Shown one piece after another: positions 20,664 to 23,079 of a stretch of 34,569 nucleotides of DNA. The stretch is from contig JAIRUN010000093.1 in assembly GCA_031254365.1 (NCBI GenBank), forward strand, positions 1-34,569, read 5' to 3'. Made by a program: the position numbers and the translations under genes. The DNA comes from Treponema sp. (lineage in GTDB: Bacteria; Spirochaetota; Spirochaetia; Treponematales; Breznakiellaceae). Below the pieces are notes generated by a model that saw nothing but the letters and a program-made list of their open reading frames with translations, was not told where the DNA came from and did no database searches. Within the stretch, counting starts at the first letter, position 1, and every line of letters starts with the position of its first letter.

Positions 20664-21392
20664 TTATGGAAGCCCAATTCTTGAAAGGGGCCAATACCGG
20701 AATACGACTCTGCCGGAGACAAGTTCAGTGGGAACCGGCCCCCATGTACGGGAATCGCTGGTGCTGCTGCGATCATCAGAAAGAACAAAACACTCTCCGG
20801 TTCCCAGATTTAAGAGTTCCATGTTTCCCGAAAAGGGAAGGGACTCATCCCAGAGCGCGGGCACATGGGGGATATTCGGGTAATATGGTTTGTCAGAAAG
20901 CTCAAATTCGGTAAGGGTATAGGAATCGCCCGCGGGCCGTATGCGCATAACAAAGTTGTTCATGCTGATTTCATCACCGGGAAGGCCGATGAGCCGCTTG
21001 AAATACAAACGTTCTTCTTTTGCGAATATGCTTGCCCGCTGGGCAGTACAGAAACGGACAATGCTGTCCGCTATCACCAGCGACATTTTTCTCTGTTCCC
21101 TGAGTCCGGTATCAACCAGTACAATTTGCCCCCGCTTGAACGGAGATGTATATTCTGTTCCCCTGATCTGTGTCAGGAGGGACGGAAGTGTGGCAGACAT
21201 CACTATAAAGCGATCCCCGGCCTGTAAACCCGGCTGCATGCTTTCATTCTGTAATACCCACACTGAAACAAACAAGGCGCTTATGAGGTTATACAGGGTA
21301 AACAGAACAAGCAGCACAATGACAGCCCGCAAAAGACGGCGGCGCTCGTGCTTTTGCGCGGTGTATGAATATCGTACTGACCGGTCAAACAT
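20664..21392 (-). CDS. lepB: Signal peptidase I (second copy)
   Basis: 242 aa; N-terminal TM, NESMQPGLQAGD (catalytic Ser), LYFKRLIGLPGDEI (catalytic Lys), FVLSDDRSSTSDSRTWGPV. Confidence 0.92.
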   Translation of the reverse strand: MFDRSVRYSYTAQKHERRRLLRAVIVLLVLFTLYNLISALFVSVWVLQNESMQPGLQAGDRFIVMSATLPSLLTQIRGTEYTSPFKRGQIVLVDTGLREQRKMSLVIADSIVRFCTAQRASIFAKEERLYFKRLIGLPGDEISMNNFVMRIRPAGDSYTLTEFELSDKPYYPNIPHVPALWDESLPFSGNMELLNLGTGECFVLSDDRSSTSDSRTWGPVPTELVSGRVVFRYWPLSRIGLP

Positions 21393-21413
21393 TCGGCGTG
21401 TTTCCTTGTTTCC

Positions 21414-22409
21414 CTAGCGGAACGATCCAAAACGGTTCAGCGGCCAGTGGATCATCATGCCTTTACCCAGCACTTTTGATTCTCTTACCGGCCCAAAATA
21501 GCGCCCATCGCGGGAATTATCCCGGTTGTCTCCCAGCGGAAGTATCCGGCCTTCATTGATATACCAGCCCAGATGCTGGCGGGCCATGAGCGCCGCATAA
21601 CGGCGGTCATGGGGCAAAGCCCCCCGCAACGTTTCCAGTCTGGCTTTTTCACGGGCAAGATGATCATCGGCGCGGATGCCGCCTGTCTGCGCCGCAACAT
21701 TGCGCAGCCGTTCAGGTATGGCAAGCCCCAAATTCTGGTATGCCGTTACCTGACCCACCGCTTCCAGCACAGGGTATTGTTCCATTTGTATGAGTCGACT
21801 GATGTGGTGTTTCCAGCCCCGCGCCGCAGCATAGTCCCGCTCATTGATCCAATGGTCCTCCCCGGCAAAACGCACTTTCATTTCACCCCTTTCCATGACA
21901 AAATGATCCCCGCCCTTGCCCACAGCCCGCTTGATCAGGAAATGCGGGCGGGGGTCCCCTGCTTCATCCCGGTCAATATCAACCAGCGTAATGGTAAGCA
22001 TGTAGATGACCCGCTGGGCAATGTCAAAGACTGTCCCTTTTGAAATATACGAAGGATTCTCAAAAATGATGATGTCATTGCGTTTGGGATGTATGGGGCT
22101 GGGCAGCTTGCCCACACCGGGAAGGAGTTCAGGCCCGTAGATGATTTTATTGACAAAGATATGATCGCCGATGAGCAGGGTATCGATCATGGAGCCTGAG
22201 GGGATTTGATACGCCTGTATAAGGTATTGATTGGCAAGCAACACCATGCCCGCGGCCCAGAGAAAGGCCTCGATCCAGTCCAGGGCCTGATTTTTTGCCC
22301 GCTGTTTTTCTTTTTTGATACGCCGGATTCGGTTCCGCCGGGTTAAATACGCCTCGGTGATACTTTGGAGTCGATCAAAAAAATCAGCGTTCCGGGTGTT
22401 CTGAGACAT
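21414..22409 (-). CDS. lepB: Signal peptidase I (first copy, with large insertion)
   Basis: ATG at 22409 (MSQNTRNADFFDRL); IPSGSMIDTLLIGDHIFVNK, FLIKRAVGKGGDHF, ILPLGDNRDNSRDGRYFGPV. Confidence 0.92.
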   Translation of the reverse strand: MSQNTRNADFFDRLQSITEAYLTRRNRIRRIKKEKQRAKNQALDWIEAFLWAAGMVLLANQYLIQAYQIPSGSMIDTLLIGDHIFVNKIIYGPELLPGVGKLPSPIHPKRNDIIIFENPSYISKGTVFDIAQRVIYMLTITLVDIDRDEAGDPRPHFLIKRAVGKGGDHFVMERGEMKVRFAGEDHWINERDYAAARGWKHHISRLIQMEQYPVLEAVGQVTAYQNLGLAIPERLRNVAAQTGGIRADDHLAREKARLETLRGALPHDRRYAALMARQHLGWYINEGRILPLGDNRDNSRDGRYFGPVRESKVLGKGMMIHWPLNRFGSFR

Positions 22410-22466
22410 TATTACGTAACCATACCATGAACAGGCCCCACAGGGCAACAGCATGGCATACCCGTC

Positions 22467-22504
22467 TGAGGGGAGCTTGGCGGCTAGCCGCCAAGCTCCC
22501 CTCA
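22467..22504. repeat. Perfect 38-bp zero-loop palindrome TGAGGGGAGCTTGGCGGCTAGCCGCCAAGCTCCCCTCA
   Basis: 19-bp arms matched base by base about centre 22485/22486; pairing breaks at 22466/22505. Confidence 0.95.
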
Positions 22505-22509
22505 AGCAG

Positions 22510-22590
22510 CCAAAAAAAGGTGACTGACACCTTTTCTATGACAAATTTGCTGTTTTTGTCAGAATAAACGGTGTCAGTCACCTTTTTTGG
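22510..22590. repeat. Nested inverted repeat: REP-like arms CCAAAAAAAGGTGACTGACACC / GGTGTCAGTCACCTTTTTTGG around an inner TGACAAA...TTTGTCA hairpin
   Basis: Left arm 22510-22531, right arm 22570-22590, inner element 22539-22561. Confidence 0.9.
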
Positions 22591-22746
22591 AGAAATGTAT
22601 TTTTTTCAAAAAAACTTGATATTTTTCATTTGATGTGGCATCTTGATCCATCAAGTACCCAAAATTAAAAATAAATATTATGCCTCCCCCCGCACGGTTA
22701 TGTCGCTGATGGGCCGGGAAAATCGTCATTCGAAGGATTATGATTT

Positions 22747-23054: not shown

Positions 23055-23079
23055 AAAAAAGGTGACTGACACCTTTTCT
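23055..23079 (+). repeat. Second direct copy of AAAAAAGGTGACTGACACCTTTTCT (REP-like)
   Basis: Identical 25 nt at 22513-22537. Confidence 0.92.

Follow-up and report, generated by a model that had tools for sequence, protein, structure and literature searches.

What is the nature of the stretch of DNA, almost entirely able to pair with itself, that lies immediately upstream of a signal-peptidase gene (lepB) in a Treponema from the termite gut? The window analyzed here is one 34.6-kb contig of a MAG of 1.67 Mb (191 contigs, 84% complete). The closest named relatives of its lepB belong to Treponema MAGs, which we take to be of termite-gut origin from their isolate names and general knowledge. 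An earlier note on this DNA suggested that the island could be a BIME/MITE-like mobile palindromic element. A genome-wide search for further copies showed that both of its halves are indeed dispersed in this genome. However, the island is not one element but two different small repeats that adjoin, a REP hairpin pair and a transposon remnant, and the palindrome in the remnant is not an intact element but what is left of one after its collapse. We are fairly confident that the island as a whole is best explained as a REP doublet beside a palindromic MITE that lacks its interior, both placed upstream of the lepB promoter. The features are listed in Table 1.

Table 1. Features of the island and its surroundings (positions in the window)
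Feature	Position	Strand	Remarks
Promoter-like block TTGCCC-N13-TTCATGGTA	22423..22448	-	Outside the island; conserved with loci L086, L087 and L088
Palindromic MITE remnant, both terminal-repeat tips, no interior	22461..22510		Tip alignments, tip count
Perfect zero-spacer palindrome	22467..22504		19+19, 100% complementary
GCTAGC, self-complementary centre, proposed deletion junction of the two arms	22483..22488		Present in both arms of C187 and C186b
REP copy 1, core GGTGACTGACACC at 22519-22531	22513..22535	+	Flank consensus AAAAA-core-NTTT
Inner 7-bp inverted repeat TGACAAA/TTTGTCA	22539..22561		22539-22545/22555-22561, inside the REP spacer
REP copy 2, inverted, core at 22570-22582	22566..22588	-	51 bp from copy 1, outer stem
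Further REP singlet, downstream of an 83-aa ORF	23061..23073	+	Core match

Folding of the island and its relation to lepB

The 135-nt stretch 22461-22595 folds far beyond chance on both strands. As single-stranded DNA it reaches -50.3 kcal/mol (z = -13.0, equalled by 0 of 200 shuffles), and as RNA the z scores of the two strands lie between -11.3 and -11.8. On the minus strand, positions 20664-22409 hold two consecutive Peptidase_S26 (signal-peptidase) genes followed by a radical-SAM HemN-type gene. An ATG at 22409 is a possible lepB start, 58 bp from the palindrome, as had been noted before.

This closeness to lepB and the very stable RNA fold (z about -11.5) would suit a structured 5' leader or a riboswitch-like element of the lepB operon, which the earlier note had offered as its other reading. 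That proposal is not supported and we regard it as very improbable, since the conserved promoter-like block lies between the island and lepB (about 18 bp separate it from the palindrome) and the lepB relatives inspected lack such an upstream structure. The exact REP core was not found upstream of lepB in these relatives, nor was a comparable inverted repeat found among 104 loci, after discounting a match at L147 whose coordinates are meaningless because its gene is truncated at a contig end. If the block is the promoter, lepB transcripts do not include the island. In addition, an Rfam search of the island returned no family above the gathering score, only sub-threshold chance matches that were mostly to eukaryotic microRNA hairpins. 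We also considered whether the lepB promoter side could be part of a repeat; this was ruled out because the stretch with the promoter-like block is single-copy in the genome.

No match to the 83-aa ORF or to DeoR was found near lepB in its nearest relatives. These are 77-78% identical in protein, too distant for their intergenic regions to be aligned, and no empty site was found among them. Since neither an empty site nor a target-site duplication was found for the island, its insertion is something we can only infer. The island most likely has no dedicated function at lepB, and would be neutral there.

The REP doublet and its distribution in the genus

The right half of the island (22513-22588) is an inverted pair of the REP-like repeat AAAAAGGTGACTGACACC. 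The nested hairpin that had been described here is real, and encloses the second inverted repeat as claimed, but its arms fit best as two 23-nt segments, 96% complementary, at 22513-22535 and 22566-22588 instead of 22510-22531 and 22570-22590. The spacer of the doublet is essentially unique in this genome, with weak matches only. By comparison, the 13-bp core GGTGACTGACACC has 38 exact copies (20 forward and 18 reverse) against none for the reversed control. Thirty-three of the 38 lie outside ORFs, which leave about 8% of the sequence uncovered; these proportions are approximate because ORFs were defined simply by their length.

Many dispersed copies of a short palindromic core, most of them intergenic, are characteristic of REP sequences, and as in REPINs some copies form inverted doublets with a hairpin-forming spacer, four of them at 57 bp and the one at lepB at 51 bp. 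A-rich sequence precedes the core and T-rich sequence follows it; each of positions -5 to -1 is an A in 33 to 35 of 37 copies. The GT(A/G)G head is missing: GTAG is absent from the REP copies of this genome. Besides singlets and inverted doublets there is a tandem array on contig C178, where five copies, mostly 57 bp apart, occupy positions 1-240 at the contig end (L063, G000:C178). Tandem arrays of this kind may break assembly.

The shape of each REP, an A-stem-T arrangement of the form AAAAAAGGTG-loop-CACCTTTT (-8.0 kcal/mol for copy 1), and the intergenic bias of the copies raise the idea of a bidirectional terminator or insulator co-opted between divergent genes. We find this improbable: a terminator scan gave none at the island, the neighbouring genes are divergent and therefore neither is expected to be read into it, and REPs between tandem, divergent and convergent genes number 14, 4 and 5, so that convergent pairs are not favoured.

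We looked for the REP family in 40 relatives. The exact core was present in 17 of the 40 sampled, all of the same genus, and the wider motif GGTGNCNGNCACC had 664 sites across 40 congeneric genomes versus 20 for its reversed control. Relatives carry Y1 transposase genes, and a G001 protein passes the NCBIfam cut-off for the REP-associated tyrosine transposase (RAYT) with 99.7 versus 80 bits. Around 19 RAYT loci, 21 motif sites were observed where 0.54 were expected from each genome's own density, the motif being carried by seven of these loci. The identical 13-mer stands beside the RAYT gene of G001 and, in the same orientation, on both sides of that of G053, while variants of the motif flank both sides of the RAYT genes of G050 and G042; in the latter, AAAAAAGGTGATTGACACCTTTTTTGG beside the gene is one base from the core. 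Across the 40 genomes, motif count and RAYT presence were weakly linked and not significantly so (p = 0.055).

Several of these loci show further arrangements. In G001, GTAG stands directly before the core in 11 of 17 copies. Its doublets of 75-76 bp, bounded by GGTGTCAGTCACC/GGTGACTGACACC, show this tag at 11 of 17 ends (L178, G001:C48, 2934-3009, and the similar L179-L183), and one of them lies immediately upstream of a RAYT gene. In G042 (L355, G042:C22, 960-1230 and 2080-2200) a RAYT gene is flanked on one side by a tandem GGTGTCAATCACC array and on the opposite side by copies in either orientation. G051 carries eleven divergent Y1-transposase-like genes, none of which reaches the RAYT cut-off.

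In the assembly studied here we found neither a RAYT nor a Y1 transposase gene; as this assembly is 84% complete, the gene may have been lost or may fall in a gap. Likewise, none was found in G005 (77 cores) or G020 (18 cores). A RAYT acting in trans on hairpins in single-stranded DNA is the probable agent that spread the REP doublet. We infer this role by association, because of the missing gene in this assembly and the weak correlation across genomes. The GTAG head is important for RAYT cleavage in vitro and its loss is tolerated to different degrees among systems (PMC8266576). It is possible, at somewhat less than even chances, that the GGTGNCNGNCACC repeats represent a class of REPs that has not been described before, in which most repeats carry no tag, and that coevolves with the RAYTs across the genus, with GTAG kept in only some species, so that these RAYTs would recognise the hairpin rather than a tetranucleotide head.

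Origin of the 38-bp palindrome

The zero-loop palindrome in the left half was found exactly as first described. No other perfect palindrome of at least 16 bp occurs in the window, and in 30 Markov shuffles of the window the longest ones measure 12-22 bp. In the stretches surveyed, which total about 626 kb of the 1.67-Mb genome, it is the longest, with the next at 26 bp, and no palindrome above 24 bp appeared when all 626 kb were shuffled five times. The suggestion that such a sequence is prone to SbcCD cleavage is partly sustained: the minimum stem for cleavage is 8-16 bp as cited in one survey (PMC3733652), yet 38 bp is far below the 460-bp palindrome that served as an SbcCD substrate in E. 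coli (PMC4245961). Our literature search found no published length above which palindromes become inviable.

The palindrome is not a CGTC-tagged REP. These are defined by a CGTC tag, a stem of 8-9 bp and a loop of 4-5 nt (PMC3733652), whereas the palindrome has CGTC on its left side only, a 19-bp stem and no loop.

The ends of the left half led to another family. They read CCCGTC-TGAGGGG on the left and, in reverse complement, GGCTGCT-TGAGGGG on the right. The tip TGAGGGGAGCNNGGC has exactly 10 matches in the genome, which form five inverted pairs and never occur unpaired. Four pairs bound palindromic elements of 170-240 bp, and the fifth is the pair of fused tips that makes up the palindrome at lepB. 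A REP, degenerate in one case, lies at one end of all five. There are about 15-17 copies of such palindromic elements in this genome, 140-240 bp long, and the full copies on C187, C186, C170 and C40 show them to be multicopy, non-coding and bounded by terminal inverted repeats, as MITEs are. No consistent target-site duplication was seen by eye in the printed flanks of the copies. The palindrome is best read as a collapsed MITE of the TGAGGGGAGC family, its interior probably lost by deletion.

A plausible route is suggested by the arms. Both arms of the full copies C187 and C186b contain GCTAGC, which, because the hexamer is self-complementary, makes a direct repeat. When the arms are joined at this hexamer, the 38-mer results letter for letter. 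A palindromic MITE of this family would have inserted at 22461-22510 and later lost its interior; since the arms of such MITEs can carry GCTAGC as a shared direct repeat, a deletion between its two copies, which the pairing of the arms in a hairpin would ease, may have left the perfect zero-spacer palindrome.

The opposite order is conceivable, with the 38-bp palindrome ancestral and the larger MITEs arising by insertion at its GCTAGC centre. The hexamer would then resemble a target-site duplication flanking the interior, and A. variabilis and H. neapolitanus are described as having REP dimers that lie inside palindromic sequences (PMC3733652). However, some copies have CCAGC in one arm and its inverted form GCTGG in the other. 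Because the arms vary in this way as inverted repeats, not as direct duplicates, deletion is more likely than insertion into a short palindrome; moreover, four full elements share these tips, and only one collapsed palindrome was found. On these grounds we judge an ancestral palindrome to be unlikely, and favour deletion from a full MITE. An assembly fold-back, which could be suspected in a MAG of 191 contigs, is hardly credible as the source of the palindrome, because its flanks differ on the two sides and both halves of the island match independent repeats elsewhere in the genome, the tips included; besides, the island is internal to the 34.6-kb contig.

Two other observations concern this family. 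The copies on C186 and C170 (L060 and L066 of G000) are near-identical, and an A/C difference between them (GCTAGC/GCTCGC) falls in opposite arms, which suggests that the two arms of a single palindrome have exchanged sequence. In many copies the MITE core lies inside a third repeat, whose ends are GGCATACATTTCTGC / GCAGAAATGTATGCC, and nested palindromic mosaics result (L060 1853-2164, L066, L064 and L230-L232).

The island among known repeat systems

Both parts of the island are common kinds of bacterial repeat, and in that sense it is ordinary genomic debris. The REP family resembles the REPIN/RAYT system (PMC3116915; Nunvar 2010, PMC2817692) in being a short, dispersed, intergenic palindrome that occurs as singlets, inverted doublets with variable hairpin spacers and tandem clusters, and in standing beside RAYT genes in relatives. 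It differs in that the copies here have no GT(A/G)G head, a short stem (GGTG/CACC plus A/T runs) and a lower copy number, in a spirochaete genome where no RAYT was found. In the founding RAYT survey, REP-flanked RAYTs were found only in gammaproteobacteria (PMC2817692).

With the GTAG- and CGTC-tagged REP superfamilies (PMC3733652), the repeats share palindromic intergenic sequences, dimers and nesting with other palindromes, and CGTC repeats have been reported in Spirochaetes (PMC3733652). Yet GTAG precedes the core in G001 (11 of 17) and not in this genome, and only some ends carry CGTC at the MITE tip, whose 19-bp stem falls outside the 8-9-bp class. As to MITEs with long terminal inverted repeats, the non-coding nature, inverted ends, size (140-240 bp) and copy number (about 15-17) of the elements agree, whereas the copy at lepB has no interior and no target-site duplication was identified.

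Our literature search found neither the core GGTGACTGACACC in a bacterial-repeat context nor a relevant paper on RAYTs with Treponema, and the REP family of this genus looks unreported. Both parts of the island are new, although they belong to known kinds, and the REP class is the more interesting of the two.

A puzzling structure is in this way resolved into two ordinary repeats. The palindrome suggests a simple route to a long perfect palindrome, in which a MITE loses its interior between self-complementary hexamers carried by the arms. The GGTGNCNGNCACC class, with its 664 sites in 40 genomes and its position beside several RAYTs, could be used to test how far RAYTs depend on the GTAG head, and deserves study at the level of the genus.
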